DNA of 14,900 nucleotides from Gammaproteobacteria bacterium (GTDB lineage Bacteria; Pseudomonadota; Gammaproteobacteria; Chromatiales; Chromatiaceae): assembly GCA_019136395.1 (NCBI GenBank), contig JAGVUH010000423.1, forward strand, positions 1 to 14,900, read 5' to 3'. This document shows, one piece after another, positions 1 through 14,696 of this stretch. The notes beneath the pieces are model-generated. The model saw only the letters and a list, made by a program, of their open reading frames with translations, was not told the origin of the DNA and ran no database searches. Position 1 is the stretch's first letter. The number at the start of each line of letters is the position of its first letter. Position numbers and translations under genes: made by a program.

Positions 1-1
1 C

Positions 2-718
2 ACCCAGCGGCCGAATGGCGTCGGCGCCGCCGTAGGCGCCACGGTCTACGACCCTCGCCGCAAAAAAGCGCTCTGCGCCAATGCCGTCTTCTCGGCGTTC
101 ATGAGCCAATTCGCGGTCTGGGACGCCGCCACCAAGGCCTGGTCCCTGGTCACCTCGACCAATAGCGTCTGGCTCTCCGCATTCGGCGGCGGCCTCGTCG
201 TGCACGAGGGGCTCGATCTGCTGCTGGCCCTGTCGGCGGTAGATGGTGCTGGGGATCCCGCCAGCCAGGGCGTCGCCTACAAAGTCTGGGCCGCCCCGCT
301 CGCCGCCGTCTTCTCCGGCGCCGCCTTCACCTGGCAGGCCCTGACCCTCTCCGTCACCTCCTGGCCGCTTAACCCCAGCGGTGGCGCCATCAACACCATC
401 AATAACCGCACCTTCGCGTATTGCCCGGACAACGGCGCCCTCTACGCCCTGGACGCCTACACCGGCAGCACGCAGGTCTGGAAGCTCGCGCCGCCGGCCG
501 GCGCCCGCAGCCAGGCCGCCGCCCTCGCCGGAACCTGGACCGTCGCTCCCGAGAGCTTCGGCGGAGAAGGCCTGGCTTCCCGCTCGCCCAGCGCCGTCAC
601 GCCTTGGACCAGCCAGCAATACGGCCGCCTGCAGTGGGTGCCTCACTGCAAGGCCTTTCTCTGGGTCTCGGACGACACCACCGGACCCGTCCAGATGATC
701 CGCCCCACCGGAGTCTAG
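2..718 (+). CDS. Partial phage structural protein, propeller-like, 5' end outside window
   Basis: The frame is open from base 2 to the TAG at 716-718, giving 238 visible residues. There is an internal ATG at 101, but sensible protein sequence continues upstream of it (YDPRRKKALCANAVFSAF), so the true start lies to the left of the window. The protein has several short segments of the type YDPxxKKAL, WDAATKAWSLV and LYALDAYTGSTQVWKL, and ends with LQWVPHCKAFLWVSDD. Such D-x(3-4)-W repeats are typical of Kelch or quinoprotein-like beta-propeller blades. No catalytic motif is seen. By position, next to other appendage proteins and before the tail genes, it is probably a virion surface protein, but this is inference. 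It ends 4 bases before the next start. Codon use matches the neighbours. Confidence 0.75.
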   Translation, partial: TQRPNGVGAAVGATVYDPRRKKALCANAVFSAFMSQFAVWDAATKAWSLVTSTNSVWLSAFGGGLVVHEGLDLLLALSAVDGAGDPASQGVAYKVWAAPLAAVFSGAAFTWQALTLSVTSWPLNPSGGAINTINNRTFAYCPDNGALYALDAYTGSTQVWKLAPPAGARSQAAALAGTWTVAPESFGGEGLASRSPSAVTPWTSQQYGRLQWVPHCKAFLWVSDDTTGPVQMIRPTGV

Positions 719-722
719 CCGC

Positions 723-2042
723 ATGGCCCAATACCACCTCCTCAACACCGGCAGCGCCACGGCCCCCGAAGACACCTGGGCCAAGGCGTTCACCACGCTC
801 TCCTCCGCTGCCGCGGGCATGGCCGCCGGGGACATCCTCTTCGCCGCGTCCGCCCATGCCGAATCCGGTGCCGGCAGCACCCTGGTCTTCCCGGGCACGG
901 TGGCATCCCCCAATCAGATCATCGGCGGCACCCCGGGCGCCACCAGCGGCCTCACCGCCACCGCAACCGGCGCTGCGGTGACCGTCACCGGGTCCTCCGT
1001 CTGGTCGATCCAGGGGTCGTTTTTCATGGAAGACGTGCGCTTCATCTTCAGCCAGACGTCCTCCGTCGCCAACTATATCGGCAACGCCAGCGGCAACGTC
1101 CAGCGCTACAAAGGCTGCGATTTCTCCATGCAGTCGAGCGCCGGGACGAGCCAGATCGTGTTCGGCGCCTCGTTGACGGGCGTCTCCAACAAAATCTCCC
1201 TGGAAAACTGCCGTTTCCGATTCGGCGCGGCCGGGCAAACGGTGAACATTACCCGCGCCGTCGAAATCCTGGGCGGATCGATCGAGTCCGGCGGGACCAC
1301 CCCCACCAGCATGTTCTACCTGACGGGGTCCGACCGCCCGTCGTCGCTGCAAGTCGACGGATTCGACTTCTCCAATTTCGGCACCGGGTTCAACGTCATC
1401 GCCGCCGCCGCCGATGGCCCCCAGAACGCCATCCTGCGCAATTGCAAATTCCCCAGCGGCTGGACCGGCGGGCTCATCGCCTCGGGCATTGCCAAGCCGG
1501 GATTCCGGTCCGAGATGCACAACTACATCGTTGGCTCGACCAACGTGCGATTCTGGATCGAGGACTATGCCGGAAGCATTCGCGAAGAGACCACGATCAA
1601 GGTCACGGCCAACAGCTACGCCTACAAGGCGGCCCTGTCCGCCAACGTCAATTATCCGGCCTCGTCGCTAATGGTCGCCGAGGCCTATTTCAACGTCGCG
1701 ACGTCCGGATCGGCCATCACCCTCACCTGGGACCTGTGTACCGACAACGTCACTCTCACCGACAAAGACGCCTGGCTGGAAGTCGAATATCTCGGCACGC
1801 CGTCAAGCAACCTCGCCACGATCACCAGCGGCAAGGCCGATGCCCTCACCGTCGTCAATAGCGGCGCCACCAACCTCACCACCTCGGGCACGACCTGGAC
1901 GACCACCGGCCTCACCACGCCGGTCAAGCAGTCCGTCAGCAGGACCTTCACGCCTCAGGCCGCCGGCCACTTCATCGCCCGTCTGCGCCTGGCCAAGGCC
2001 TCCACCACGATTTACTGCGATCAAGCCCCGGTGGTGTCCTGA
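723..2042 (+). CDS. Putative beta-helix phage appendage protein (439 aa)
   Basis: Starts at ATG 723 with GGAG at 710-713 as a plausible ribosome binding site, and ends at TGA 2040-2042, which overlaps the next ATG by one base. The N-terminus (MAQYHLLNTGSATAPEDTW) reads like a phage structural protein. In the middle, a short hydrophobic-aromatic motif recurs: YKGCDF (Cys near residue 132), LENCRF (163), VDGFDF (214) and LRNCKF (241). Repeats of this kind are what right-handed parallel beta-helix coils of the pectate-lyase-like fold look like, with stacked Cys, Asn or Phe residues. The last 140 residues are rich in Thr, Ser and Val and look like a beta-sandwich. No lyase or hydrolase active site can be named. 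The likely role is a tail or head appendage that may contact host surface polysaccharide. The fold is inferred from pattern and the function is uncertain. Confidence 0.8.
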   Translation: MAQYHLLNTGSATAPEDTWAKAFTTLSSAAAGMAAGDILFAASAHAESGAGSTLVFPGTVASPNQIIGGTPGATSGLTATATGAAVTVTGSSVWSIQGSFFMEDVRFIFSQTSSVANYIGNASGNVQRYKGCDFSMQSSAGTSQIVFGASLTGVSNKISLENCRFRFGAAGQTVNITRAVEILGGSIESGGTTPTSMFYLTGSDRPSSLQVDGFDFSNFGTGFNVIAAAADGPQNAILRNCKFPSGWTGGLIASGIAKPGFRSEMHNYIVGSTNVRFWIEDYAGSIREETTIKVTANSYAYKAALSANVNYPASSLMVAEAYFNVATSGSAITLTWDLCTDNVTLTDKDAWLEVEYLGTPSSNLATITSGKADALTVVNSGATNLTTSGTTWTTTGLTTPVKQSVSRTFTPQAAGHFIARLRLAKASTTIYCDQAPVVS

Positions 2043-2668
2043 TGGCCCTGCAGCGGCTCCCTTCCGGCAACCTCCTGATCGAATCCGTCGGCGGCTGGCA
2101 GCGCCTGCCGGACGGCCGCCTGGCCTATGACGCCACGTCCGGCAGCGTCGACGGCACCGCTTCCGGCGGCACGCTCACCGGCACCGGCAGCCTCACCGGC
2201 GGCGCCGCCACCGGCGATGCCACCGCCTCCGGCGGGACGATCACCGGAGCGGGATCCATTACCGGCGGCACCGCCTCGGCCGGCGGCGACGCCGCGGCGG
2301 CAGGCGCCACCCTCACAGGCACCGGCAGCCTCACGGGAGGCGCCGCCACCGGCGACGCGAACGCATCCGGCGGCACGATCGCCGGCACCGGCGCCATCAC
2401 CGGCGGCACCGCCACCGGCGCCGTCAGTTTCACGACGTCCGCCATGGAAAACAACGCCGGATCGCTCCTTGCCTCCACCGCCGTGGTCTGGGAGTGGCGC
2501 CAGGGCGGCACCATCGGCGCCGCGCCCGTCTCCGTGACCTACGGCAGCGGCACCACCAACGCCAGCGGCATCCTCACCGTCAGTGGCATCCCCGCCGGGG
2601 CCGGCGAGCTGCTCGTCGCCACGCCGGACGTCGTCAGCGTCTTCTACCAGCGCGGAGACGCCGCCTGA
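2042..2668 (+). CDS. Gly/Thr/Ala-rich repeat virion protein A (208 aa)
   Basis: Starts at ATG 2042 inside the TGATG junction with the preceding gene and ends in the same way against the next gene. Residues 1-33 form a short head (MALQRLPSGNLLIESVGGWQ) followed by a repeat region from about residue 33 to 125. Three full repeats of 22, 24 and 22 residues share the pattern S-[LI]-T-G-G-x-A-x-G-D-A-x-A-x-G-G-T-[LI]-x-G-x-G. The C-terminal 80 residues contain two short beta-rich stretches, including TTNASGILTVSGIPAGAGELLV, typical of Ig-like or carboxypeptidase-regulatory-like domains in phage proteins. The next gene encodes the same repeat, so the two may form one structure. No enzyme motif is seen. 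A fibrous or spike-like virion appendage is the best guess; I do not recognise a named family. Confidence 0.8.
   Translation: MALQRLPSGNLLIESVGGWQRLPDGRLAYDATSGSVDGTASGGTLTGTGSLTGGAATGDATASGGTITGAGSITGGTASAGGDAAAAGATLTGTGSLTGGAATGDANASGGTIAGTGAITGGTATGAVSFTTSAMENNAGSLLASTAVVWEWRQGGTIGAAPVSVTYGSGTTNASGILTVSGIPAGAGELLVATPDVVSVFYQRGDAA
2189..2392 (+). repeat. Tandem coding repeats, 22-24-22 residues, in repeat protein A
   Basis: Three contiguous imperfect repeats covering residues 50-117 of the protein starting at 2042. Each ends in G-[AT]-G and most carry G-G-x-A-x-G-D-A near the middle. The 24-residue unit is in the centre. The same 22-24-22 layout and the same total length of 204 bases occur again at 3034-3237 in the next gene. 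Confidence 0.85.
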
Positions 2669-3357
2669 TGCTCCGTAACCTCAACCGCACCGCTGGCGGC
2701 CGCCGCATCCTGGGCGTGCCCGACGTCGGCATCCTGGCGGCCACCCTCCTGGCCGAGACCGCCAGCGGCGACAATGGCCCCGGCCTGCTCTACGACGATG
2801 CCGGCGCCCATCCCGGCGCCCAACTGCGGGCCCGCATCACCACCTGGCCCGGGGTCGGAAGCTTCTTCGTCTACGAAAACGGCGCCTTCGACGCCAGCGG
2901 GTTTCCGGATGGCGTCTATAACATCCCCTACGACGTCTATGTCGACAACGCCCTGAGCGTTTCAGACACCCTGACCCTGACCTTCGGCACCGGAAGCGCC
3001 AGCGCGCCCGGCGGCACCGTCACCGGAACCGGCACCATCAGCGCGGGCTCCACCTCAGGCGATGCCGCGGCGTCCGGCGCCACCCTCACGGGCACCGGCA
3101 GCATCGTCGGCGGTAGCGCATCCGCCGACGGCTCCGCGACCGCCCCGGGCGCCACTCTCACCGGGACCGGAGATCTGACGTCAGGCCAGTCCGTGGGCGA
3201 TGCCATCGCGGCCGGCGCCGTCCTGACCGGCACCGGCAGCCTCACCGGCGGCGGCGTCCCCGGCGTGCTCACCGCGGACGACATCGACCCCCGCTACATC
3301 CGCCGAACCTCCCGCCGTTTCACCGTCACCCGAGGGCGCCATGTCGGATCGATTTGA
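2668..3357 (+). CDS. Gly/Thr/Ala-rich repeat virion protein B (229 aa)
   Basis: The frame is open from further upstream, but the start chosen is ATG 2668 in the TGATG junction, with GGAG at 2654-2657. The sequence upstream in this frame is basic low-complexity shadow of the preceding gene. Residues 1-106 form a domain containing GPGLLYDDAG, GSFFVYENGAFDASG and FPDGVYNIPYDVYVDN, a beta-sandwich style found in phage structural proteins. Residues 107-199 hold three full repeats (22, 24 and 22 residues) of the same type as in the previous gene, most ending LTGTG. The C-terminus (DDIDPRYIRRTSRRF) is short and basic. It overlaps the next gene by 17 bases. It is probably a virion appendage partner of repeat protein A; the neighbouring repeats suggest duplication and divergence of the repeat module. 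Exact function is unknown. Confidence 0.8.
   Translation: MLRNLNRTAGGRRILGVPDVGILAATLLAETASGDNGPGLLYDDAGAHPGAQLRARITTWPGVGSFFVYENGAFDASGFPDGVYNIPYDVYVDNALSVSDTLTLTFGTGSASAPGGTVTGTGTISAGSTSGDAAASGATLTGTGSIVGGSASADGSATAPGATLTGTGDLTSGQSVGDAIAAGAVLTGTGSLTGGGVPGVLTADDIDPRYIRRTSRRFTVTRGRHVGSI
3034..3237 (+). repeat. Tandem coding repeats, 22-24-22 residues, in repeat protein B
   Basis: Residues 123-190 of the protein starting at 2668. The register matches the copy at 2189-2392: 22, 24 then 22 residues. A 27-base stretch at 3076-3102 differs from 2303-2329 at one base only, which shows the two arrays are related at DNA level as well as protein level. Confidence 0.85.
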
Positions 3358-3646
3358 AAACGCCTACGTCGACGAAAAAATCGTCCTCACCTTCGACTTC
3401 CAGGACGAACTGGAGCCCGGAGAAGCCCTGGAAGGCACCCCCACTGTCGGCGTCTCCGTCCTCCAGGGCACCGATCCGGTGCCGGAAAACCTGCTCAACG
3501 GCCTCCCCGGAATCGTCGAGAGTGCCGTCCTGGTGCCGGTCGATCCCACCGCCGCCGCAGTCGATTACCGCATCAAGGTCCTGGTGGCTACCAGCAACCC
3601 CCAAAAAGTTCTGGCCTGCATCGGCCGGCTCTACGTCGAGGCCTGA
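3341..3646 (+). CDS. Small conserved-type phage virion protein (101 aa)
   Basis: Starts at ATG 3341 with GAGGG at 3332-3336 just upstream, inside the end of the preceding gene, and ends at TGA 3646. The protein is acidic in the first half (FDFQDELEPGEALEG) and ends with alternating beta strands (DYRIKVLVATSNPQ, IGRLYVEA). This layout, with an early acidic strand, a statement of a target value and a final Tyr-Arg-Ile-x-Val strand, resembles small beta-sandwich proteins commonly found between head and tail genes of long-tailed phages, sometimes annotated as fibre-tail adaptor proteins. That match is from memory of the family style and is not certain. Placement just before a putative tail terminator supports a head-tail or fibre attachment role. 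Confidence 0.75.
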   Translation: MSDRFENAYVDEKIVLTFDFQDELEPGEALEGTPTVGVSVLQGTDPVPENLLNGLPGIVESAVLVPVDPTAAAVDYRIKVLVATSNPQKVLACIGRLYVEA

Positions 3647-3647
3647 C

Positions 3648-4049
3648 ATGGACGTCTTCGACCTCGAAACCGCCCTGGTATCCCGCATTTCTGCGCTGCC
3701 CGAGGCCCGCAACGTCCCCGTTCTCAGCACCGGGGAGGCCGTCGATTTCACCGCTGGCGTCGACAACGCCCTGGCGGTCAAGGTCGCCATCGGGTCCATC
3801 AGTGTCGGCGGCCAGGTCCAGACCCAGGCCCGCCAGTACGCCGAATTCAGCGTCACCGTCTATCGGCGTCTCGCCGCCGGCCGGCGGCAGTCCCAGCAAG
3901 CGCTCTTTTCCGCGGCGGTCTCCGCCCTGGTCGGTTGGCAACCGGTCCCCGGCCGGGAATGCCGGCTCGCCGACGGTCCCCCTCCCCACGACGAAGACGG
4001 CGTCGCGGGCGTGTCCTTCGCCGTCGCCATCCCCGTTTTTTACTCCTAG
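3648..4049 (+). CDS. Putative tail terminator / Gp37-like (DUF1834-type) protein (133 aa)
   Basis: ATG 3648 follows the previous TGA by one base, with GAGG at 3638-3641. The frame is open upstream, but that sequence is shadow of the preceding gene. The N-terminus MDVFDLETALVSRISAL, a short helix, followed by a value-type segment (ARNVPVLS) and beta strands (AEFSVTVYRRLAAG, VAGVSFAVAIPVFYS), fits the small alpha/beta proteins that lie immediately before the tail tube gene, such as Mu Gp37-like and lambda U-like tail terminators. Those proteins cap the tail tube and stop its growth, then join the head. The length of 133 residues is within the usual range. The position directly before the tail tube gene is the strongest support; the family assignment is inference. 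Confidence 0.7.
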   Translation: MDVFDLETALVSRISALPEARNVPVLSTGEAVDFTAGVDNALAVKVAIGSISVGGQVQTQARQYAEFSVTVYRRLAAGRRQSQQALFSAAVSALVGWQPVPGRECRLADGPPPHDEDGVAGVSFAVAIPVFYS

Positions 4050-4052
4050 GAG
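4048..4052 (+). promoter_or_regulatory. Strong ribosome binding site of the tail tube gene
   Basis: AGGAG lies 6 bases before ATG 4059 and overlaps the TAG stop of the previous gene. It is among the best Shine-Dalgarno matches on the + strand, as expected for the most abundant tail protein. Confidence 0.8.
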
Positions 4053-4058
4053 CACATC

Positions 4059-4799
4059 ATGACCGCCTCGATCCAGAACGGAAAAACCGCCTTCGCGGAC
4101 TACTCATCCGCCATCCCCTACGCCAACCGCCAATTCACCCGCGTCGGCAATGCCTCTGTCCTGACCCTCAACGTGAACGAAGAAACCAAGGACCTCCTGG
4201 ACTACCAGGACGGCTCCGGCGGTCTCGCCGCCAGCTATCGCCGCGTGCAAAGCGTTACCGGACAGATCGACCTCCGCGATATTTCCGCCGCCAATCTGGC
4301 GCTGGCCCTCTGGGGCACCACGGCCGCCCTGGGCGTCACCGCCATCACCGGAGAGACGCACAAAATCTACCCCGGGGCTTTCATTCCGACCAACCGCCTC
4401 ATCAACACCACGATTGCCCCTGTGGTGAAAAAGGGCGCCACCACGGTCGCGACGACGGATTACGTCGTCAGCAAGGCCGGCATCCTGATCGCCTCGACCA
4501 TCACCACCGGCGGCGTGACCTCCGGCGATTCCATTACCATCGATTACACCCCGGCCGCCGGCAACGACGTCCAGGCGCTCATCAACACGGCGCCCCTCAA
4601 GTCCCTGCATTTCGAGGGCGTCAATCAGGTCGACGGCAAGTACGTCAATTTGCGCATCTGGCAGATCAAACTCGGCGCGCCGAAAAACATCTCGATGATC
4701 GGCGACGATTTCGCGACCCTCTCCCTGGAGTTTTCGGTGATCAAAGACACGACCATCGTCAGCGGGTCGCAATATTTCGACATGGAACAGGAGTCCTAA
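4059..4799 (+). CDS. Major tail tube protein (246 aa)
   Basis: Forms the stacked hexameric rings of the non-contractile tail tube. The ATG at 4059 is fixed by AGGAG 6 bases upstream. The N-terminus is MTASIQNGKTAFADYSSAIPY, then an NASVLTLNVNEETKDLLDYQ segment, a charge-rich strand typical of the tube fold. The central part (residues 100-180) has an inserted Thr-rich beta domain (GVTSGDSITIDYTPAAGNDVQ). The C-terminal part has KNISMIGDDFATLSLEFSVIKD, a segment I associate with siphovirus tube proteins, and ends in FDMEQES. Its position between a putative terminator and the chaperone/tape measure pair is the standard order for tail tube genes. There is no sheath gene beside it, so the tail is probably non-contractile and flexible. 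It ends 3 bases before the next start. Confidence 0.88.
   Translation: MTASIQNGKTAFADYSSAIPYANRQFTRVGNASVLTLNVNEETKDLLDYQDGSGGLAASYRRVQSVTGQIDLRDISAANLALALWGTTAALGVTAITGETHKIYPGAFIPTNRLINTTIAPVVKKGATTVATTDYVVSKAGILIASTITTGGVTSGDSITIDYTPAAGNDVQALINTAPLKSLHFEGVNQVDGKYVNLRIWQIKLGAPKNISMIGDDFATLSLEFSVIKDTTIVSGSQYFDMEQES
4789..4793 (+). promoter_or_regulatory. Ribosome binding site deciding a GTG start
   Basis: AGGAG lies 9 bases before GTG 4803. It supports a GTG start for the tail assembly chaperone, since no ATG lies nearby in frame. Confidence 0.65.
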
Positions 4800-4802
4800 G
4801 CG

Positions 4803-5165
4803 GTGGCGATCACCAAGACCGTCACCGTCGGCGAATGCGTCACCGTCACCGTGCGAGAACTGACGGTGATGGAAGTGCGAGATTGGGCGGTGGATCTCGG
4901 AAACGGCGCGCGGAAGATCGACATCGGCGGCGAGTACGCCTTCGACGGCTATTCCCTGGACGACCTCCTGCGCATGTCCAATGCAAGGCTGGCCGACCTG
5001 GAATGCCTCACGCCGTCCGAGTTGGCACCGCTGGCCGCCGCCTGCCAGGAACTGAATCCGCATTTTTTCAAGGCCCGCGCAGCAGTGGCCGCAGCGAACC
5101 GGGCGCTGCTGCGCGGGATCTTGAGCGGGCCATCGTCGCCCTTGTCGAGCGCGGACACAGCATGA
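4803..5165 (+). CDS. Tail assembly chaperone, G-type (120 aa), unshifted product
   Basis: Binds the tape measure protein before tail tube polymerisation in long-tailed phages. GTG 4803 is chosen because of AGGAG at 4789-4793 and the 3-base gap after the tail tube stop. The protein begins MAITKTVTVGECVTVTVRELTVMEVRDW, a beta strand leader common in G-type chaperones, followed by an acidic alpha-helical part (FDGYSLDDLLRMSNARLADLECLTPSELAPLAAACQELNPHFF). It is followed directly by the tape measure gene. The last 30 residues after NPHFF are low complexity and overlap the other frame used by the frameshift product, so the zero-frame ending is probably tolerated rather than selected. See the shifted product for the second form. 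Confidence 0.82.
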   Translation: MAITKTVTVGECVTVTVRELTVMEVRDWAVDLGNGARKIDIGGEYAFDGYSLDDLLRMSNARLADLECLTPSELAPLAAACQELNPHFFKARAAVAAANRALLRGILSGPSSPLSSADTA

Positions 5166-5224
5166 TCCTGGCCTACCCATGGCGCCTTTACCTCGCCGCG
5201 GTCGAGATGAATCGTGCAAACTGA
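4803..5224 (+). CDS. Tail assembly chaperone G-T fusion made by -1 frameshift (140 aa)
   Basis: Decoding 4803-5069 (89 residues) followed by a -1 shift that re-reads base 5069 gives 51 more residues to TGA 5222-5224. The joined end reads NPHFF then QGPRSSGR, and continues to ERAIVALVERGHSMILAYPWRLYLAAVEMNRAN. That tail is a well-formed helical segment with a Trp-Arg-Leu-Tyr motif, unlike the low-complexity zero-frame end, and this kind of ending is what I associate with the T half of phage GT chaperones. It overlaps the tape measure start (GTG 5214) by 11 bases. In lambda-like systems the T part links the chaperone to tail tube subunits. The shift is inferred from sequence; the slippery site and stem-loop are listed separately. 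Confidence 0.8.
5063..5069 (+). promoter_or_regulatory. Slippery heptamer T TTT TTC for -1 frameshift
   Basis: The zero-frame codons are CAT TTT TTC AAG, so the heptamer T TTT TTC fits the X XXY YYZ rule for simultaneous slippage. It lies 26 codons before the end of the unshifted chaperone, and the -1 frame beyond it stays open to 5224. Confidence 0.85.
5074..5117 (+). promoter_or_regulatory. Frameshift-stimulating RNA stem-loop
   Basis: The arms CCCGCGCAGCAG (5074-5085) and CTGCTGCGCGGG (5106-5117) are perfect inverted repeats of 12 bp. The stem continues inward with a U-G pair (5086/5105), a G-C pair (5087/5104), one G-G mismatch, and three more pairs (5089-5091 with 5100-5102), leaving an 8-base loop. 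It starts 4 bases after the slippery heptamer. This is the usual kind of layout for a -1 frameshift signal. Stability was judged by eye, not computed. Confidence 0.8.
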
Positions 5225-7349
5225 AACCAGGATCGTCCTGACCGCAGACGCACGGGGCGTCCAGGCCGGTGCGCGCCAAGCGGTAGCCAGCCTCAACGAC
5301 GTCGAGAAAGCCCTCGGCAGCATTCAGGCGCTCTCGGCCAAGGCGCTGTCCTTCGCGGGGCTAGGCTTCGGCGGCAAGGAACTGATCGCCCTCGCAGACC
5401 AATACGGCGCCCTGACCGCACGGCTGCAGCTCGCCACCCAATTTACCGGCGATTTCAGCCAGGTCATGGCGGCGCTGCGCCGCACCGCAGACGACACCCG
5501 GGCGCCCCTTAAGGATACCGTCGATCTCTACACCAAGCTGTCGCCATCGCTGCAAGCCTTGGGGCGCAGCGGTGCCCAGTCGGTGTCCGTCATTGCCACC
5601 GTCAACAAGGCCATTGCCCTCTCCGGCGCCAGTAGCGAGGCTGCCTCCGCCAGCATGACGCAGTTTTCCCAGGCCCTCGGCTCCGGCGTCCTGCGCGGCG
5701 ACGAGCTCAACTCCATCCTGGAGCAGACGCCCACCCTGGCCGACGCCATCGCCGAAGGCCTCGGCGTAGCCCGGGGAGAACTGCGCAAAATGGGCGAAGA
5801 CGGGCAGCTCTCAAGCCTTGTCGTGCTGCGGGCCTTGGAAAAGGTTTCTGACCGCATCGACCGCGACTTCGCAAAAATGCCGACCACGGTCGGCCAGGCG
5901 CTCACATATCTGCTCAATACCCTATTCAAGGATTTCTCGGCGGCCTCGAGCGGCATCATGATTCCAGCCATCGCCCTGATCATCGATACCGTGGACGGTG
6001 CCGCCCGCGTCTTCCGTACCCTGGGGATCACCATCGCCGCGATGGCGGCGCGCTTCGTGGAGACCTTCAAGGGCAATTTCGACGTCGCCGGACAGATCCG
6101 CGACGAGGCCAATACCCAGATCGAGGCCATCTGGGCCGAACCCCAGTGGAAAGACAAATACAAGCAGGCCATCGTGGCGACCGAAAAAGACGTCGCCGAC
6201 CAGCGCCTCAAACTGCAGAAAAACCTCGCCGCCGAGCAGCAGAAACTCGAAGACCTCAAGACCTTCGCCGCAGGCAAGGCCTCCGCGGCCATCCTGAAGG
6301 ACGACAAGGCACGCATCGACGAGCAGATCAAGGATGCCGAGCGCCTGCGCGACGCGCTGGCCAGGGCATGGGAAGACACCCGGAAGGGCATCGAAGCGGC
6401 GCGGAAAGAAGCCGACGATCTGCTGCATAAGGCCGCCGACGTTCGTCAGGCCGCCGCCGACAAGATCGCCGACCGTCAGAACAAGAACCTTACCCCAGAG
6501 CAGCAGGACGCCAATACCTTCAGCGATTTCCAGCAAGCCGCCAGCGCCGCCGCGTTTAATCAGGCGCTCGCCAAGGCCGCCGGCATCGATGGCCGCATTG
6601 AAGTCGCGAAGCGCGCCGCCGAGAAGGCCGCCCGAGATACCGAGCGAGCCGTCCGGCTGGCGGACAAGCTCCAGAATGACGACTTGGCCATCAAAGCCAT
6701 CGGAGAGGCCGCCGACCTGCAGGCCAGGCTCCTCGAAGCGCAAGCGGAGGCCAAGCAAAAGGAATCCTCCGACCTGGAGGCCAAAGCCCAACAGCAGGCG
6801 GACACGCTCCGCAACCTGGAAGCCAGTCTTGACGCGCTGCGCCAGAAAGCCGCCACCCTCCAGGTGCAGGCAGATGTGACCCAGGCAGAAGCCAGGATCG
6901 CCGGCCTCAAGGCCCAGCTCGATGCGCTCACCGACAAGACCGTCACCGTCACCGTCAACACCGTCGCCGCCGGGCAGGCGGGTGCCGCGCCGGCGCCCGG
7001 ATTCGCCGCCGGCGGCTACACCGGCCCCGGCGCCAAATTCACCCCGGCCGGCATCGTTCATGCCGGCGAGTTCGTCGTCCGCCGCGAAGTGGTGAATTTG
7101 CCCGGCGTCATGGCCATGCTGGCCCGACTTAACCGGGATGGGGTCGCGAGCCTCAAAGGCTACGCCTCCGGCGGCCTTGTCGGCCGCCTTGGCGTCCCCG
7201 CGCTGCCGGCCTCCCGCGGGAGCACGCCGACCCCGGTCAATCTGCACCTGGACGGCCGCCGCTACCCCATGGCCGCAGCCCCTGACGTGGTCGCGGAAAT
7301 CACGGCCGCCCTGGGCCGCGAAGCGCTGCGTTGGGGAGGGCGGCGATGA
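5214..7349 (+). CDS. Tape measure protein (711 aa)
   Basis: Sets tail length as a scaffold inside the tube and is ejected during infection. The GTG start at 5214 overlaps the chaperone T frame. Residues about 159-210 (VLRGDELNSILEQTPTLADAIAEGLGVARGELRKMGE) match the N-terminal tape measure domain known as tape_meas_nterm. A hydrophobic stretch follows at about 245-285 (GIMIPAIALIIDTVDG) and may insert in the host membrane. Residues about 310-590 are a long charged alpha-helical coiled-coil region rich in Ala, Lys, Glu, Gln and Asp. Near residue 600 the motif GGYTGPGAKFTPAGIVHAGEFVVRREV appears, which is typical of the C-terminal part of these proteins. At about 0.15 nm per residue the tail would be near 105 nm. 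The stop overlaps the next start as ATGA. Confidence 0.93.
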   Translation: MQTETRIVLTADARGVQAGARQAVASLNDVEKALGSIQALSAKALSFAGLGFGGKELIALADQYGALTARLQLATQFTGDFSQVMAALRRTADDTRAPLKDTVDLYTKLSPSLQALGRSGAQSVSVIATVNKAIALSGASSEAASASMTQFSQALGSGVLRGDELNSILEQTPTLADAIAEGLGVARGELRKMGEDGQLSSLVVLRALEKVSDRIDRDFAKMPTTVGQALTYLLNTLFKDFSAASSGIMIPAIALIIDTVDGAARVFRTLGITIAAMAARFVETFKGNFDVAGQIRDEANTQIEAIWAEPQWKDKYKQAIVATEKDVADQRLKLQKNLAAEQQKLEDLKTFAAGKASAAILKDDKARIDEQIKDAERLRDALARAWEDTRKGIEAARKEADDLLHKAADVRQAAADKIADRQNKNLTPEQQDANTFSDFQQAASAAAFNQALAKAAGIDGRIEVAKRAAEKAARDTERAVRLADKLQNDDLAIKAIGEAADLQARLLEAQAEAKQKESSDLEAKAQQQADTLRNLEASLDALRQKAATLQVQADVTQAEARIAGLKAQLDALTDKTVTVTVNTVAAGQAGAAPAPGFAAGGYTGPGAKFTPAGIVHAGEFVVRREVVNLPGVMAMLARLNRDGVASLKGYASGGLVGRLGVPALPASRGSTPTPVNLHLDGRRYPMAAAPDVVAEITAALGREALRWGGRR
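7333..7340 (+). promoter_or_regulatory. Ribosome binding site deciding the start at 7346
   Basis: GGGGAGGG sits 5 bases before ATG 7346, which overlaps the tape measure stop. An in-frame upstream start at 7331 (TTG) lies before this site and is therefore unlikely. Confidence 0.7.
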
Positions 7350-7858
7350 GTTTCGAAATCGGCAGCATCGTCCTCCACGACATCCAGTCCCTGGACCTGG
7401 AGCAGACCTATGAGCCCCTGGGCGGCGAAGCAATCCTGCGGGCGGTGTCTGGCCTGGGCCTGAAACAGGCCACCTGGAGCAAACTGCGGGTGACGACCAG
7501 CGGCTCCGGCTGGATGCCGCCGTCCCTGGCCGCCCTCGACACCGCGGCGCAGCAGACCCTCAAATGCGCGGTGCCGCGCTCGATCCCCTGCAGCGGGCTC
7601 ACCGCCACCCTGCCCGCCGCGCGGCGGTCCGATACCGGTCATACCCCCTACGGCATCGCCATTCTGCCCAGCGGCCAGGCCGTCAAGACCGCCGCCGCCC
7701 TGGTCGGCGATGTCGCCACCGTCACGGCGGTCTCCGGCGCCACAGCCTACGCCGTCCAATACTATCCCCAGCTCACCGTCTGGGCCCTGCGCCCCAGCGC
7801 CTCCGGCAATCGCGGAGACGCGAGCCACCGCTGGGAACTCGTCTGCGAAGAGGTCTAG
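7346..7858 (+). CDS. Conserved-type phage tail-tip protein (170 aa)
   Basis: Starts at ATG 7346 in the ATGA overlap with the tape measure gene and ends at TAG 7858. The sequence has LEQTYEPLGGEAILRAVSGLGLKQATWSKLRVTTSGSGWMPPSL in residues 20-60, then a Cys-containing strand (LKCAVPRSIPCS) and a C-terminal beta strand block (YYPQLTVWALRPSASG). The YEPLGG, W-x-K-L-R and SGW motifs occur in a family of small proteins found directly after tape measure genes in long-tailed phages of Proteobacteria. That is from memory and has not been searched. The position suggests a distal-tail or minor tail role. No catalytic residues are seen. Confidence 0.78.
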   Translation: MSFEIGSIVLHDIQSLDLEQTYEPLGGEAILRAVSGLGLKQATWSKLRVTTSGSGWMPPSLAALDTAAQQTLKCAVPRSIPCSGLTATLPAARRSDTGHTPYGIAILPSGQAVKTAAALVGDVATVTAVSGATAYAVQYYPQLTVWALRPSASGNRGDASHRWELVCEEV

Positions 7859-7861
7859 CAT

Positions 7862-8830
7862 ATGCCCACATCCCCCCTGCGAATCGGTCCGCGCATCCAG
7901 GAAACCACGACGACCACCGGCACCGGTGCGCTGACGCTCGCGGGCGCGACCGATCAGCATTTTCCCTTCTCGGCGATTCAGGTCGGGTTTTCGACCGCGA
8001 TCTCTGTGCCCTATCTGTTGACCTGGACCGGCGGGGTCGAATGGGGTTTAGGCGAAATCAGCGCGGACGGGACGACGCTCTCCCGCGCCATCGTCTCCGG
8101 CGTCTATCCCGGTAACTGGCGCAACGGGGCTCCCGGCGGACAGGCCAACCTCCCGGCCGGGACAAAAACCGTTTCCCTGGTTGTCCTGGACGGCCTGTCC
8201 CTGGTGGCGACGGGCGGAGCCTATACCACCGACGACCCGACCGGGGACGTCCCGCCGACCTGCGTACAGAACAGCAGCGTCGCCCTCGGCATCGGCGCCC
8301 TGTCCGACGGGGACGGCGCCGTGGCGGCCGGTTATCAGGCCTGGGTAGGGGCGCCCTACGGTGTCGCCATCGGAGCACTGGCCTATGCCACCCATCCGTT
8401 TTCGCGGGTGATCGGGTCGGGGGGGTCCATGGGCGACAGCTCCCTGACCGTCGGATTCGAGGAAACCCTGTTCGGCGAGCAACTCGGCGCGGGCCAGGCC
8501 GTCTCCGGCACCCCTTTTAACGCCGATTTTGCCTGGCTGATGCAAAATCCTGACGCACTCTGGTGGATCGACCTGACGGCAATCGGCGCCAATGTGGCGC
8601 GGACACAATTCCGCGCCATCCGCCGGTCGCTCCTCGTCCAGGGGACGACGCTGCAGGTGACCGGGTCGGATACCGTCCTGGTCTCGACGCTGGCGACCGT
8701 GCCGACGGTGACCTGCACGATCGGCGCATCGCCCGACGGCAATGGCAATCTGCCTCTGCACGTCTCGGCCAGCAGCTCCGGAGCGACGGCCGTCGATTGG
8801 CGGATTTCCGCCACGGTGCGCGGCGGATGA
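7862..8830 (+). CDS. Tail-associated protein with YadA-like head segment (322 aa)
   Basis: ATG 7862 follows the previous stop by 3 bases, with GAAGAGG at 7847-7853. The N-terminal 110 residues (IQETTTTTGTGALTLAGA, then TLSRAIVSG and LPAGTKTVSLVVLDG) match a small beta domain common in phage surface proteins, in which an attribute is set by TLSR and NLPAGTK motifs. Residues about 137-175 contain SVALGIGALSDGDGAVAAGYQAWVGAPYGVAIGALA, the A-[IV]-A-x-G type repeats of the YadA adhesin head, a left-handed beta-roll that trimerises. Three such coils are seen. The remaining 150 residues are a separate beta-rich domain. The role is probably tail-tip or fibre surface; the sequence does not show which host structure it touches. 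Confidence 0.8.
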   Translation: MPTSPLRIGPRIQETTTTTGTGALTLAGATDQHFPFSAIQVGFSTAISVPYLLTWTGGVEWGLGEISADGTTLSRAIVSGVYPGNWRNGAPGGQANLPAGTKTVSLVVLDGLSLVATGGAYTTDDPTGDVPPTCVQNSSVALGIGALSDGDGAVAAGYQAWVGAPYGVAIGALAYATHPFSRVIGSGGSMGDSSLTVGFEETLFGEQLGAGQAVSGTPFNADFAWLMQNPDALWWIDLTAIGANVARTQFRAIRRSLLVQGTTLQVTGSDTVLVSTLATVPTVTCTIGASPDGNGNLPLHVSASSSGATAVDWRISATVRGG

Positions 8831-10542
8831 TCTACGGCGAATCCCTCTACGCGTCAGATCCCTACGCCGAGGGCAGCCTCGCCGCCGTCCCGGCCGAGTA
8901 TCTCTCCGGGGCGCGTAGCGCCGCCGAGCCCTACGGCGCCGCGGCGGCCGTGTGGACGGCCATCGTCATCCTGGCTGGGGTCAATGTCACCGACACGGTC
9001 GTCGGCGACATCGTCGTCGAAGCGGAGGAGGGCGCGGCCCGTATCGCCGAACTGGCACTCAGGCCTGAGACCGGGACAACCCTGGATCTGGCATCCTGGA
9101 CCGGGCGGTCCTTGACCATCGATCTGGCCGAGCTGGCGACCGGAACCGTCCGCTACCCCATGCGGCTGTTTACGGGGGTGGTCGACACGCCGGAGCTAGA
9201 TCTGGAATCCCGGGTGGTCCGCTTGCGCGCCACCGACGACCTGCAGGGCGCGATCGACGCGCTGACGCGGTCGGAAATCGCTGCCCTGATCGGCGGGCGC
9301 TGGTCGACGGCGGTGTTCGACGCCGCGGCCCAGGGCTGGCGCCATGCCCAGGACCGGCTCTCCACCGTCCGGGCCAGCCTGGACCTGTCCCCCTCCGGCG
9401 CTCTGCGCCTGACTGCCTGGGCGCCCGCCGCCACGCCGGGCATCGTCTTCGGGGCGGACCGTCTGATCGACGCCACGCTGGCCGTCACCCTCGCGGACCG
9501 CCAGGGGCTGGTGAATACGATCGCCATCGACTTCGCCTATCGATTCCCGCGGCTCAAGGCCGAGGGCTTTGGGCTTGGCTATCACTACGTCAACGCCGGC
9601 AGTTTTGCCGCCTACGTCCTCGCGGGCAAATGGTTTTTGCAGCGCTCCGCGGTCGAGCAGGCCATTTCAACGGCCGGGCTCTCCATCGTCTCGATCACCT
9701 ATGACGCGATGCCGGCCTCGCCGATTGCGGTGGGATCGGGCTACTGGACCCCCAACCCGGCCGTTGATATCACCCTGTGCATGGGGTTCGACGCCACGGT
9801 CGCCTACGATTATTCCCAGGCCATCGAGGAGGCCCATCAAATCACCGTCGCCTGCGCCGGGAGCGTCGCTGCCGTCGGCGTCCAGCGGCAGACGATGAGC
9901 GGCGCCCTGGAGGGGGTCTATCAGCAGGCGCCGGGCTGGGAAACCAAGGCCCGCCTGTACCGGGCCAGCATCGAGACCGTGCCGCCGCAGGACCTGGCGC
10001 CGGTCGTGGTCGGCAAGACCAGCGGCCAGGACCCGACCCTGACGCTCGAGAGCAATCGCGCCGCGTGCAACGCGGCCATCGAAACCCTGATCGACATCGC
10101 CAAGACGACCATATGGGCCAGTCACCGCCGGAATGGCGTCGCGGCCGCCGTCTGTCTCAATCCCGCCCTCGATCTCGACCAGACCGTCGAGGTCGATGCC
10201 GCGGGCGTGCACGCCATCGGCAAGGTGCGCCGTGTCCGCCATCGCATGAGCCCCGAGCGCGGCGAGGCGGTGAGCGAATTCGAGCTGGCCCTCTGCGCGG
10301 TTTCCGGCGTCGGCGTCACCCATCCCGAAACCTCCACCGCCGCGGTGCCCGGCCCCGGCCCCGTGCAGACCGACCTGACGGATGACCCCGTGATCACCTT
10401 CGCCAACCTGTACGCCGAAGACCATAGCTTCACCATCGATTTCCCCGCCGTGGCCGACGCCGAGCGCGATGCGGCCGCCCCGGCGATCGTCAGCAGTTTT
10501 GCCGCCTCCCTGGTTGAGGACGTGTTCACGGTGACCCTATGA
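8827..10542 (+). CDS. Baseplate/tail hub-like protein (571 aa)
   Basis: Start chosen at ATG 8827, which overlaps the preceding TGA as ATGA. The frame is open from 8563, but the upstream part is basic low-complexity shadow. The segment at residues 113-141 (RLFTGVVDTPELDLESRVVRLRATDDLQG) is typical of hub proteins of the Gp27/Gp44 type, which have a strand and helix around FTGxVD. RHAQDRLSTVRASLDLSPSGALRLTAWAP lies further on, near residues 175-205. Residues 480-571 look like a final beta domain. Hubs sit at the tail tip and form the ring through which the tape measure and DNA leave. The fold is supported by motif style only. It ends in an ATGA overlap with the next gene. Confidence 0.72.
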   Translation: MIYGESLYASDPYAEGSLAAVPAEYLSGARSAAEPYGAAAAVWTAIVILAGVNVTDTVVGDIVVEAEEGAARIAELALRPETGTTLDLASWTGRSLTIDLAELATGTVRYPMRLFTGVVDTPELDLESRVVRLRATDDLQGAIDALTRSEIAALIGGRWSTAVFDAAAQGWRHAQDRLSTVRASLDLSPSGALRLTAWAPAATPGIVFGADRLIDATLAVTLADRQGLVNTIAIDFAYRFPRLKAEGFGLGYHYVNAGSFAAYVLAGKWFLQRSAVEQAISTAGLSIVSITYDAMPASPIAVGSGYWTPNPAVDITLCMGFDATVAYDYSQAIEEAHQITVACAGSVAAVGVQRQTMSGALEGVYQQAPGWETKARLYRASIETVPPQDLAPVVVGKTSGQDPTLTLESNRAACNAAIETLIDIAKTTIWASHRRNGVAAAVCLNPALDLDQTVEVDAAGVHAIGKVRRVRHRMSPERGEAVSEFELALCAVSGVGVTHPETSTAAVPGPGPVQTDLTDDPVITFANLYAEDHSFTIDFPAVADAERDAAAPAIVSSFAASLVEDVFTVTL

Positions 10543-10877
10543 GCAAAGACCTCACTGCCGCCCTGGACGCCCTGACCCGCGAAGCCGCAGGGCAGACCAG
10601 CCGCGTGGACAAGGCCCTGCCCGCCGCAGCGGCCGCCCAGCCCATCCCGGCGCGCTCGGGCACAGGCAAGCCTGCCGCTGCGAGCGGCAACGGCAGCGCG
10701 ATCGCCAGCCCGCTGACGGAAACGGCATTCGCCGACCGCACCTGGTGGTCGAGCCGCAACAAAACATCGACCGATGGCCTGTTCACTCTCGCCCACACGC
10801 CGCTCAAGTCCATTAAATTCACCGACGCCAACTCGGCCGAGGTAGTGATCAATTTTGTCGATCCCCCGGTGACATGA
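10539..10877 (+). CDS. Small tail-tip protein (112 aa)
   Basis: ATG 10539 overlaps the hub stop by 4 bases, with GGTGA at 10530-10534. The first 60 residues are Ala-, Pro- and Ser-rich and likely disordered. The C-terminal 50 residues (ETAFADRTWWSSRNKTSTDGLFTLAHTPLKSIKFTDANSAEVVINFVDPP) are a compact beta-rich block with a WW motif. Such small proteins follow the hub gene in several proteobacterial phages. Its partner and function are unknown. It ends in an ATGA overlap with the next gene. Confidence 0.75.
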   Translation: MSKDLTAALDALTREAAGQTSRVDKALPAAAAAQPIPARSGTGKPAAASGNGSAIASPLTETAFADRTWWSSRNKTSTDGLFTLAHTPLKSIKFTDANSAEVVINFVDPPVT

Positions 10878-12358
10878 TCGACGACGGACTCGACCCCCTC
10901 ATCAAGATCGACGCCTGGGGCAACTGGTGGCACGGCAGCTACGACACGGCGGCCGGATTCCGCTCCCGGTCCGGGGTGGCGCAGCCGGTTGTGGCCGCGT
11001 CCTCACAGGCCGCCAGTAACCTGGCCCAGTCGGCAGAGTGCCACCTGGTCGATTTCGGCATGCCCGCCGCGGCGACGCCATCCGGAGAGTCGGATGCCGG
11101 AATGGAGCGGTGGCACAAGGCGATCTTGTTTGGATCGGCCCGGCGCTGGTCGATCCTGGGCGCCAGCGAACTCGGCTTTAACGCGTGGCCCTACCGCGCC
11201 CCGGATGGACAGGTTTGGATTTTGCGACCCTTTTTCGGGGTAAATCAGTGCCGCGTCGCCGCCAGTCGGCTCCGGCTCCCGGGCGCTGCCACCGATACCG
11301 AGACGGTCGTCGCGACGTTCAGCCGCACGGTGCCGACGAGCGGGACACAGTATTGGGATGTCGCCCACGCGCCGGACGGCACGAAGGCCGCCCTGCGCCA
11401 TTTCCCGACTGCACGCTACGACGCAAACGGGATTACGCTCAATTTCCTGCTGGAGTTTGCGGTCGCTGGCGGGGACGCGGGCACCCCGCCGACGGTGACG
11501 ATTTCAGAAACGAGCGTCGCAAATGTCATCGAGACGGGCAACTACCTCCAAAAGTCTCCCGCCAAAGTGCCGGTATCCTCGAGCACCCAATATTACGGGC
11601 ACCTGACCGACCCCAATCTGAGAGTAAAAATTACTCGATGGTTCGCGGATTCACTGATCCCTGTGCAGTCGGTCGTCAAGTCGTGGTCCGTGACACGAAA
11701 AATGCTGGGCGTGTGCTACGACGCGGCCGGAGCGCGCTGTGAAATCACGCTGCGCCTGGGTACCGAACAGAGCGACGACGACGTCGTCCAGGCCATGGAG
11801 GATACGTTCAAGTGGGGGTACGAGCAGCAGGAATTCACCGCGGGGGCATGGTTCGGCACGGGAGCGACGCTGACCGATTCCGAGTTGGCCAGCGACTATG
11901 GATACACCCCCGAACCGCAAGGCACCGCGGGCACCAACCTGCGGCCGGCAGACTTCTCTGGGTGGTTTTTCCATATCGAAAACAAGACCATTTGCAACGA
12001 GATCGCGGTCGGCAGTCGGGTGATCGATTACAACACCCAGATCGTGTCGGTCTTTCAGAGCCAGGTGTTCGACGCGCTGTTTCTGGCGCGCCTGGATGAT
12101 CCGATCTCCGCTGGCGCCTCGCCAAGCAGTTCGCAAACCGGGCACGGCGTAGGCGAAGTCGGCGTGCTCTGGTGGTTTCCGTACCCCCAGGTGGTCGCTG
12201 CCGTGAAATCCGCGCCCGGAAGCCCCGTCGACATCCATGCCTATGCGCACCCCGCTGCAGCGGCCTGGTATGGCGAATCCGGAAAACTCAGTACGACGAA
12301 GTTCGCCGTCCACCCCGAGACCGGTGCTTTTGCGCCGACCACCACCCTCTATTACTGA
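10874..12358 (+). CDS. Unassigned large tail-tip protein (494 aa), possible receptor-binding protein
   Basis: ATG 10874 overlaps the preceding gene as ATGA, and TGA 12358 is 10 bases before the next start. I do not recognise a family. Visible features are an aromatic N-terminus (IDAWGNWWHGSYDTAAG), WILRPFFGVNQC near residue 115, a strand-rich middle, VVQAMEDTFKWGYEQQEFTAGAWFG near 305-325, and a Ser/Gly-rich segment (GASPSSSQTGHG) near 415-430. There is no signal peptide, membrane segment or catalytic motif. Around 11500-11720 the codons become more AT-rich than in neighbours (for example CTG AGA GTA AAA ATT), suggesting exchange in this part. Being the last and largest gene of the tail block, it could be a host-recognition protein, but this is inference only. 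Confidence 0.7.
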   Translation: MIDDGLDPLIKIDAWGNWWHGSYDTAAGFRSRSGVAQPVVAASSQAASNLAQSAECHLVDFGMPAAATPSGESDAGMERWHKAILFGSARRWSILGASELGFNAWPYRAPDGQVWILRPFFGVNQCRVAASRLRLPGAATDTETVVATFSRTVPTSGTQYWDVAHAPDGTKAALRHFPTARYDANGITLNFLLEFAVAGGDAGTPPTVTISETSVANVIETGNYLQKSPAKVPVSSSTQYYGHLTDPNLRVKITRWFADSLIPVQSVVKSWSVTRKMLGVCYDAAGARCEITLRLGTEQSDDDVVQAMEDTFKWGYEQQEFTAGAWFGTGATLTDSELASDYGYTPEPQGTAGTNLRPADFSGWFFHIENKTICNEIAVGSRVIDYNTQIVSVFQSQVFDALFLARLDDPISAGASPSSSQTGHGVGEVGVLWWFPYPQVVAAVKSAPGSPVDIHAYAHPAAAAWYGESGKLSTTKFAVHPETGAFAPTTTLYY

Positions 12359-12368
12359 GGCCGCCCCC

Positions 12369-12740
12369 ATGACCCTCTCCAGCGAAGCCCCTCTGACCGG
12401 CGCCACCCTCGGGCTGGGGATCGTCTCCGCTGCCCAGGCCGTGGGCATCGACCCTGTGCTGGCCCTGGCCGGCGCAGCCGGAGCCCTGTGGGCCCAATTC
12501 TATCTGCCGCAGATGCAATTCTCCGTCCGCATCGGCTCCGTCCTCCTGGGCTCGCTGATCGCCTCCTGGTCGGCCCCCGCCCTGGCCGCCGCGCTGCCCT
12601 CATTGCCCGGCTGGCCGGCAGCGGTGACCGTCGAGATGGTGACCTTCCCGGCGGCGGTCACGATCGGGCTGCTCTTCCACGCGGCCGGAGGAGTGGCTCA
12701 TCGCCTGGTCCTGCGCCGCGGAGACTCCGATGCCCGCTGA
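12369..12740 (+). CDS. Hydrophobic lysis-cassette protein, possible holin or antiholin (123 aa)
   Basis: The frame is open from 12237, but ATG 12369 is chosen because it lies after the upstream stop (12356-12358) and has GAGG at 12357-12360. Three hydrophobic segments are visible at residues about 28-46, 54-76 and 91-113, followed by a basic tail (HRLVLRRGDSDAR). That is the layout of a class I holin. It overlaps the next gene by 11 bases. A holin forms membrane holes that release the endolysin. Two other holin-like genes are nearby, so this could instead be a regulator or antiholin. No named family was recognised. Confidence 0.72.
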   Translation: MTLSSEAPLTGATLGLGIVSAAQAVGIDPVLALAGAAGALWAQFYLPQMQFSVRIGSVLLGSLIASWSAPALAAALPSLPGWPAAVTVEMVTFPAAVTIGLLFHAAGGVAHRLVLRRGDSDAR

Positions 12741-13020
12741 TCTCCTCTCCCAGATCGCCGCCGCCGCCGCGTGCGGCATCATCATCGCCCGCTGCGAACC
12801 GGCCCTCAACCGCATGCGGGCTGGCTCCTCCCCGGTCCTGCTCATGCTGTCATTCTGGTGCCTGGTGGTCGCCGCCTTGGGCGGGATCACCCTGATCCTG
12901 ATCGGAGCCGTTCCCCCCTGGCCCGCCACCGTCGGCGCCATGGGCGTCGCGCTGCTCCTCATGTGCGAGCGCCGGGTCCGCTATCTCACCCGCATCCCAA
13001 AACGCCATGACGCCTCCTGA
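12730..13020 (+). CDS. Holin-like membrane protein (96 aa)
   Basis: ATG 12730 has GGAG at 12720-12723 and lies inside the end of the preceding gene. Hydrophobic segments lie at residues about 5-20, 35-60 and 64-79. Charged residues between them (RCEPALNRMR) and the basic end (CERRVRYLTRIPKRHD) suggest an inside positive face. The segment PVLLMLSFWCLVVAALGGI and the short tail are typical of small phage holins located before endolysins. The gene overlaps the next by 14 bases. It is a good holin candidate; class is uncertain. Confidence 0.75.
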   Translation: MPADLLSQIAAAAACGIIIARCEPALNRMRAGSSPVLLMLSFWCLVVAALGGITLILIGAVPPWPATVGAMGVALLLMCERRVRYLTRIPKRHDAS

Positions 13021-13198
13021 TTCAGACCGGAGCGCCTGCCCGGGCTGCTCCGCCGCCCCGCCGCTCGATCCGCATCCCGCGCCGCCCCCCGACTGCGTCA
13101 ATTGCCAGTGGATGATCCGCGGCCGCGTCGGCTGGATCGTCGGCGTGCTCGTCCTTTGGTTTTCGGTCCTCGCCTACTGGGTCTTGCATGCGGCTTGA
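13007..13198 (+). CDS. Small Cys-rich single-TM protein (63 aa)
   Basis: ATG 13007 overlaps the upstream stop by 14 bases, and the gene overlaps the endolysin start by 11 bases. The first 35 residues are Pro- and Cys-rich with two CxxC pairs (Cys11/14 and Cys30/33), and residues about 41-60 form one transmembrane helix (VGWIVGVLVLWFSVLAYWVL). No lipobox and no signal peptide cleavage site are seen. No Shine-Dalgarno sequence is obvious, so translation may depend on the upstream gene. Possible roles are a lysis regulator or metal- or disulfide-binding membrane peptide. I do not recognise it, and it may be a chance frame, though codon use and gene packing fit. Confidence 0.5.
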   Translation: MTPPDSDRSACPGCSAAPPLDPHPAPPPDCVNCQWMIRGRVGWIVGVLVLWFSVLAYWVLHAA

Positions 13199-13769: not shown

Positions 13770-13771
13770 CC

Positions 13772-14188
13772 ATGGACCCCATCACCCTCTCCGGCCTGTT
13801 CGCCATCGGCGGAAAACTCATCGACAAACTATTCCCGGATCCCGCGCAGCGCGAGCAGGCCAAGGCCGAGCTGGTGCGCCTGGAGCAGGCCGGCGAACTC
13901 GATGCCATGAAAATCCAGCTCTCCGCCATCATCGCCGAGGCCCAAAGCGCCGATCCCTGGACCAGCCGCGCCCGTCCGTCCTTTCTTTACGTGGTCTACA
14001 TCCTGCTGCTGTGGTCGATCCCCATGGGCGTCCTGACCGTCTTCGCCCCCGAGCGCGCCGCCGCGTTCACCATCGGATTCAAAGCCTGGATGGCAAGCAT
14101 CCCAGAACCCGTCCTGGCCCTCTTCGGGACCGTCATGACCGGCTACGTCATCGGCCGCTCCTGGGAAAAGGTCAGGGGCGGGAAGTGA
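13772..14188 (+). CDS. Holin of the 3TM gene-transfer-release type (138 aa)
   Basis: ATG 13772 follows the endolysin stop by 2 bases, with GGAG at 13761-13764. The frame is open upstream but that part is endolysin shadow. The N-terminus contains LFPDPAQREQAKAELVRLEQ, and residues 60-66 are ADPWTSR followed by a transmembrane helix at about 70-92 (FLYVVYILLLWSIPMGVLTV). A second hydrophobic helix lies at about 112-130 (PVLALFGTVMTGYVIGRS). These match the GTA_holin_3TM family of holins. It makes the membrane hole for endolysin release or membrane depolarisation. It is the last gene of the late operon. Its stop is 27 bases from the stop of a gene on the other strand. Confidence 0.85.
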   Translation: MDPITLSGLFAIGGKLIDKLFPDPAQREQAKAELVRLEQAGELDAMKIQLSAIIAEAQSADPWTSRARPSFLYVVYILLLWSIPMGVLTVFAPERAAAFTIGFKAWMASIPEPVLALFGTVMTGYVIGRSWEKVRGGK

Positions 14189-14215
14189 CCTCCACAATCG
14201 CGCCAGGATCGATTT

Positions 14216-14690: not shown

Positions 14691-14696
14691 TTTGTT

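Follow-up and report, generated by a model that had tools for sequence, protein, structure and literature searches.

In phage lambda, a -1 ribosomal frameshift near the end of gene G produces a G-T fusion, and the products G and GT act on the tape-measure and major tail proteins, as described in PMC5009743. Phage P2 makes E and an E+E' fusion of 142 amino acids (as given in PMC3091744) by a -1 shift at a heptamer in a T run shortly upstream of the tape-measure gene, as annotated in NC_001895. In SPP1, a putative -1 shift at UUUUUUC in the tail chaperone gene 17.5 (products 17.5 and 17.5*) was proposed from bioinformatics, as described in PMC6316719. Here we analyse a comparable locus in a stretch of 14,900 nucleotides (nt) from a Gammaproteobacteria bacterium of the Chromatiaceae (assembly GCA_019136395.1, contig JAGVUH010000423.1, positions 1 to 14,900), which we refer to as a whole as the window. 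The locus consists of a small tail assembly chaperone-like gene, referred to as G, and an extension in the -1 frame, referred to as T. Sequence layout and conservation lead us to the view, with a probability of about 0.93, that the window carries a programmed -1 ribosomal frameshift site of the lambda G/GT type. The mechanism is well known, and a slippery motif made of a T run is not new either, as it occurs in P2 (TTTTTTG) and SPP1 (UUUUUUC); the window is a well-supported further example.

The locus resembles each of these systems in part. It shares with lambda the position of the predicted shift near the end of G and the G-T fusion, with P2 a heptamer in a T run shortly upstream of the tape-measure gene, and with SPP1 the heptamer itself, although SPP1 is a Bacillus phage and the likeness rests on its published description. 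Like E. coli dnaX and the IS3 family (PMC3711429 and PMC4066793, as far as they describe these sites), it combines a Shine-Dalgarno (SD)-like element, a heptamer and a downstream hairpin, whereas dnaX is an unrelated gene with the A-rich heptamer A AAA AAG. A phage counterpart within the same protein family is gp12 of Pseudomonas phage F10, one of 33 F10-like phage records that match the family of G. It reads the same codons, CAT TTT TTC, and its -1 frame is open through a T region that precedes the tape-measure gene. Unlike the window, it has no outstanding hairpin (rank 0.76); its SD-like element is moderate (rank 0.08). No joined coding sequence is annotated at the chaperone gene of F10, LESphi2, MD8, JBD68 or CF67a (5 of the 33 records). 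Searches of a collection of open-access papers showed no description of a frameshift site for this family (PHROG 7608), and priority is not established.

A slippery heptamer and an open -1 frame in G

G occupies positions 4803-5165, starts with GTG and encodes a 0-frame product of 120 amino acids that matches PHROG 7608 (E 1.2e-18). Like all elements of the site described below, it lies on the forward strand. It is a small gene flanked by the major tail protein gene and the tape-measure gene, which is the layout of lambda-type G/GT genes. Near its 3' end, the 0-frame codons CAT TTT TTC (5061-5069) place the heptamer T TTT TTC (5063-5069) in the X XXY YYZ register for a -1 slip. The slippery heptamer of lambda, GGGAAAG, is different from this TTTTTTC. 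From 5069 onwards the -1 frame remains open past the G stop until a TGA at 5222-5224. This T frame (5069-5224, 51 codons and the TGA) overlaps the start of the tape-measure gene, and the predicted GT fusion has 89+51 = 140 amino acids. An initial annotation, made from the sequence alone, had proposed this heptamer in this register and an open -1 frame that adds a T-type tail to give a 140-amino-acid fusion. Its positions proved exact, and the protein pattern of the tail is conserved in relatives (see below). One other TTTTTTY is found in the window, on the minus strand at 3374-3380 (two in all), with a chance expectation of 0.73 for both strands; the heptamer by itself is therefore unremarkable.

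Conservation of the heptamer in the family

Relatives of G were collected by several routes. A protein search yielded 16 relatives (alignment A1), and DNA loci were taken from viral contigs (41), genome contigs (20), two F10-like phages and one further genome. Three whole-genome searches found matches in 22 of 395, 10 of 399 and 27 of 398 genomes; genome G001 contributes to all three counts. Contigs were scanned for peptide patterns, NPHFF among them, allowing every codon and so not demanding the heptamer, and the genome searches used a protein profile. A profile located the slip site in 124 of 125 sequences, the window included (L001 gave no match), and 95 loci were left after dropping those more than 90% identical over 160 nt. 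A hold-out set came from the 54 matches listed in the third genome search, of which 24 had no locus and were fetched later; the site lay on the contig in 23 of these 24, and 4 of the 23 shared more than 90% identity with a locus used before. A single genome (G787, contig C1) gave seven matches to the family of G, which suggests several related prophages; all six that were examined carry the heptamer.

The heptamer T TTT TT[C/T] was present in 92 of the 95 non-redundant loci (65 with TTTTTTC, 27 with TTTTTTT, 3 without). The amino acids and the codon usage of each locus predict 12.9 of 94, in a model that leaves shared ancestry aside and from which L074, with MF in place of FF, was omitted. NPHFF is well conserved at the protein level (alignment A1). 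Across the loci the residue before FF can be H, D, G, R, L, P, V, Y, N, A or S (11 kinds), and 93 of 95 loci have T in the third position of its codon. All 23 hold-out loci had the heptamer followed by an open -1 frame of 50-115 codons. The excess of heptamers over the expectation, the T-ending codon despite a variable residue and the hold-out result together point to selection that acts on the nucleotides, beyond the protein alone.

The T region and its joint loss with the heptamer

Past the slip site, the -1 frame of the 95 loci has a median length of 58 codons, compared with 29 in the 0 frame. A fixed regular expression for the T pattern matched 77 of the 95 loci; of the other 18, 13 showed a variant of the pattern by eye, two (L082 and L087) showed none and three were those without the heptamer. 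In an alignment of 25 hand-chosen T regions that included the window, the 24 others were 28-46% identical to the T of the window, with a variable part under the hairpin followed by the conserved pattern ER..AL..GH..W.YPWR.Y..A. None of these 25 regions matched a PHROG at E<=0.1, and searches against Pfam gave only single scattered matches (E 0.056-0.087). The site points to a hidden, unannotated T region without an assignment to Pfam or PHROG among the members searched. In the reverse complement of L087, a T-like pattern lies in the 0 frame from about position 347 onward with an internal stop, and may be a copy that has decayed or been rearranged.

The three loci without the heptamer (L047, L074 and L077) have -1 frames of only 3, 3 and 10 codons, and in each of them G runs almost directly into a tape-measure-like frame. 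They form one clade with a support of 99 in the Shimodaira-Hasegawa-like approximate likelihood-ratio test (SH-aLRT), and this clade is placed next to the window (84; in a quick tree built from few columns). A T profile found nothing in any of the three genomes, where the best 150 of 193, 196 and 232 candidates were scored, and gave one match in each of three control genomes. The heptamer is therefore missing from the sampled loci only where T is missing as well, and the clade that lacks both serves as a natural control.

A predicted stable hairpin downstream of the heptamer

The window contains an inverted repeat just past the heptamer that could form a stimulatory hairpin with its 5' arm at 5074-5091 and its 3' arm at 5100-5117. 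The outer parts of the arms are 12-base-pair (bp) exact reverse complements, CCCGCGCAGCAG (5074-5085) and CTGCTGCGCGGG (5106-5117), and begin 4 nt past the heptamer. Further inward, 5086 pairs with 5105, 5087 with 5104 and 5089-5091 with 5102-5100, which gives 17 pairs in total with one G/G mismatch and an 8-nt loop. The initial annotation had described this perfect repeat, its distance of 4 bases and its five inner pairs with one mismatch without error. At 44 nt after a 4-nt spacer, the hairpin lies within the range used for dnaX and IS3-type sites (17-140 nt, starting 4-10 nt past the heptamer). A search for inverted repeats in the window returned six, and this one heads the list with the best complementarity (89% over 18 nt).

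Several controls indicate that this hairpin is not a likely product of chance. The segment 5060-5125, which the initial annotation had singled out for folding, has a minimum free energy (MFE) of -45.3 kcal/mol (z -5.7 against dinucleotide shuffles), and none of 200 shuffles folded as well. For the longer piece 5070-5165, z was only -1.95 and 10 of 200 shuffles were as good. At none of 1630 other window positions in the same phase was a hairpin as stable found. When the 60 nt downstream of the heptamer were recoded synonymously, 1 in 10,000 recodings folded as well with the 0 frame kept and 1 in 10,000 with the -1 frame kept, and arms of at least 12 bp arose in 1 and 6 of 10,000, respectively. 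This agrees with the earlier supposition that a coding sequence rarely retains such a repeat by chance. The MFE fold adds outer pairs between 5068-5073 and 5119-5124 with a bulge at 5118, which a ribosome on the slip site would be expected to melt. For a pseudoknot, the hairpin loop (5092-5099) was compared with the next 113 nt, and no run of at least 5 pairs was found. A scan of 4800-5400 against Rfam gave only a mir-128 match that was rejected (E 0.74; 16 bits, where the gathering score is 49).

Downstream structure is also enriched in the family. Among the 92 heptamer-bearing loci, 35 have an MFE over the downstream 60 nt that ranks within the best 5% of the locus concerned, and 37 have a single hairpin that does so. 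Compared with synonymous recodings, the mean z of the downstream MFE was -1.34, with 40 of 92 loci at p<=0.05. By single-hairpin energy, the window lineage ranks strongest of the 92. A recurrent compact hairpin, with 10 pairs, a 6-nt loop and a start after 6 nt, formed at least 8 of its pairs in 16 of 92 loci, compared with 0-5 loci at other offsets from -9 to +9. Of the first 47 loci, 14 followed this rule, and in their alignment (A3) 96.4% of cells pair, a percentage that is inflated because loci were chosen by pairing; double changes, which are less affected by this choice, occurred on both sides in 8 of the 10 pairs. Alignment A3 contained 26 compensatory cells, compared with 8.3 in shuffles, and none of 500 shuffles reached as many. 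In an earlier set, made up of 13 of those 14 loci and L030 with 7 pairs, such changes affected 6 of 10 pairs and 21 cells. Each pair of the compact hairpin requires between 1 and 6 changes of state on the tree. An offset of -31 was met by 17 of 47 loci, compared with 14 at the true register; we read this as purine-rich codons opposite the T run and did not count it. Three further loci (L004, L043 and L045) have stems around loops of 27-35 nt. These stems, like that of the window, which spans 44 nt, begin 4-6 nt past the heptamer, and the positions of their 3' arms differ. As the 3' arms of relatives lie elsewhere than in the window, the compensating changes support the hairpin as a class and not the two arms of the window itself. 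The question raised in the initial annotation, whether the arms are conserved with compensating changes, thus has a divided answer: downstream structure is enriched and compensating changes occur in the compact subset, but the exact register of the window was not seen in relatives. At tail-chaperone frameshifts, where structure is called rare in PMC3091744, this adds comparative evidence for a stimulatory RNA.

A Shine-Dalgarno-like element upstream of the heptamer

The rule described in PMC4066793 defines an SD-like element as GAGG, GGAG, AGGA, GGNGG or AGGKG at 6-17 nt before the second heptamer base. In the window, AGGA at 5047-5050 fits this rule, with its last base 14 positions before the second heptamer base, and its predicted pairing with the anti-SD sequence is only moderate (rank 0.21). 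By the same rule, 55 of the 92 heptamer-bearing loci have an SD-like motif, compared with 18.0 expected. The anti-SD energy was in the top 5% in 27 of 92 loci, and against synonymous recoding 13 of 92 were at p<=0.05, with a mean z of -0.86. We also asked whether loci trade the hairpin off against the SD-like element. Among the first 47 loci, Spearman correlations were -0.43 (p 0.003) with the 60-nt MFE rank and -0.28 (p 0.06) with 36 nt, and in the 92 loci they faded to -0.23 (p 0.03, hairpin ranks) and -0.15 (p 0.14, MFE ranks). A 2x2 comparison gave an odds ratio of 1.04 (p 1), the synonymous z-scores were unrelated and tree-independent pairs were too few, and we do not claim a trade-off.

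Proposed mechanism and alternative explanations

The analysis shows the sequence layout, the conservation of the heptamer at the nucleotide level and of the -1 frame, the joint absence of heptamer and T in one clade and the excess of structure with compensatory change in relatives. That the shift takes place, its frequency, its stimulation by the hairpin and the roles of G and GT are inferred. Most ribosomes would make the 120-amino-acid G (4803-5165). Some would pause at T TTT TTC as the hairpin at 5074-5117 resists unwinding, perhaps aided by pairing of AGGA (5047-5050) with the 16S rRNA. The two tRNA-Phe could then slip back by one base, from TTT TTC to TTT TTT, and form new pairs in the -1 frame, after which translation would go on through T to position 5224 and yield the 140-amino-acid GT. 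By analogy with lambda, G would bind the tape-measure protein, the rarer GT would recruit the tail tube subunit and neither would stay in the virion.

Three observations weigh against parts of this proposal. The pairing register of the window is not found in its relatives, whose 3' arms sit elsewhere; in 45 of 92 loci neither the MFE nor the hairpin measure marks the structure as outstanding; and an SD-like motif is also present in two of the three loci without the heptamer. The first two would fit a site where the heptamer shifts and the long hairpin is a by-product of coding that stimulates nothing, as in P2. The P2-like phages have no hairpin reported in the account that PMC3091744 gives of them, and P2 itself, checked here, likewise lacks an outstanding downstream structure (rank 0.48) and has a good SD-like element (rank 0.03). 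More generally, downstream structure at phage frameshift sequences is described in PMC3091744 as limited to rare cases, and the analysis presented in PMC4066793 predicted a hairpin in 3 of 5 phage clusters and considered it relevant in one after a stricter test. However, the stability of the window hairpin, rarely matched by synonymous recodings in either frame and by no other window position, and the family-wide structure excess with compensatory change in a subset make a mere by-product unlikely.

A frameshift-like product could also arise without any ribosomal slippage, if RNA polymerase slipped on the T run and mRNAs of altered length let normal ribosomes read T. The T run is conserved, and the 27 of 95 loci with TTTTTTT at the site would suit such a process, but the runs are short (6 T in 60 of the 92 heptamer-bearing loci, 7 in 31 and 8 in 1) next to those that PMC3711429 names for transcriptional realignment, which exceed 7 A or 8 T. 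Moreover, a flanking SD-like motif and a hairpin 4-10 nt downstream are elements of ribosomal shifting in the description of PMC4066793, and we consider transcriptional slippage very improbable. That no shift takes place, with T unmade and the conservation due to the well-conserved NPHFF protein motif only, is scarcely credible given a codon choice that departs widely from usage (heptamer in 92 of 95 loci, with about 13 expected), a third base that rarely varies before FF where the residue does, and a -1 frame that retains a conserved protein pattern.

Within the ribosomal reading, the differences between loci allow a more speculative proposal. It is possible, if doubtful, that the stimulatory RNA turns over while the heptamer stays fixed, and that the window lineage shifts unusually often, beside a clade that lost both the shift and T. 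As a tentative picture of such turnover, the 5' arm would remain about 4-7 nt past the heptamer and its 3' partner would move, giving compact, intermediate and long-loop forms, or yield to the SD-like element. If true, the family would offer a natural series for the tuning and loss of the GT:G ratio.

Identity of G and gene neighbourhood

The PHROG 7608 family matched by G is filed as "unknown function". Pfam Phage_TAC_7, which is named for P2 E, matched 12 of 17 members of the G family below threshold at E<=0.5 (best E 0.0013), and PHROG 1442, a tail assembly chaperone family, matched 4 of 17 at E<=0.05 (best E 1e-7). A fold comparison of G gave no significant match, and a direct profile comparison of G with P2 gpE gave nothing (probability 0.1). 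The predicted frameshift site suggests a function for PHROG 7608.

Both neighbours of G are on the forward strand. The major tail protein gene (4059-4799) matches PHROG 807 with an immunoglobulin-like domain (E 1.7e-42), and the tape-measure protein gene (5214-7349, GTG start) matches Pfam TMP_3 (E 1.4e-57) and PHROG 339 (E 1.1e-76). As the tape-measure GTG start at 5214 lies within the end of the T frame (5214-5224), termination of GT could be coupled to tape-measure initiation.

Upstream of the tail genes, the region 2149-2420 (genes 2042-2668 and about 2655-3357) encodes proteins built of GGTITGTGSLTGG-like repeats. The repeat gene 2042-2668 contains tandem units of 66 and 138 bp, and its protein had no Pfam match at E<=0.01. 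Towards the other end of the window, at 13188-13769 and 14216-14659 (minus strand), the genes include a GH19-type endolysin (PHROG 181, E 2e-54) and, on the opposite strand, a helix-turn-helix gene whose match to HTH_31 (E 6.5e-6) falls slightly below the cut-off.
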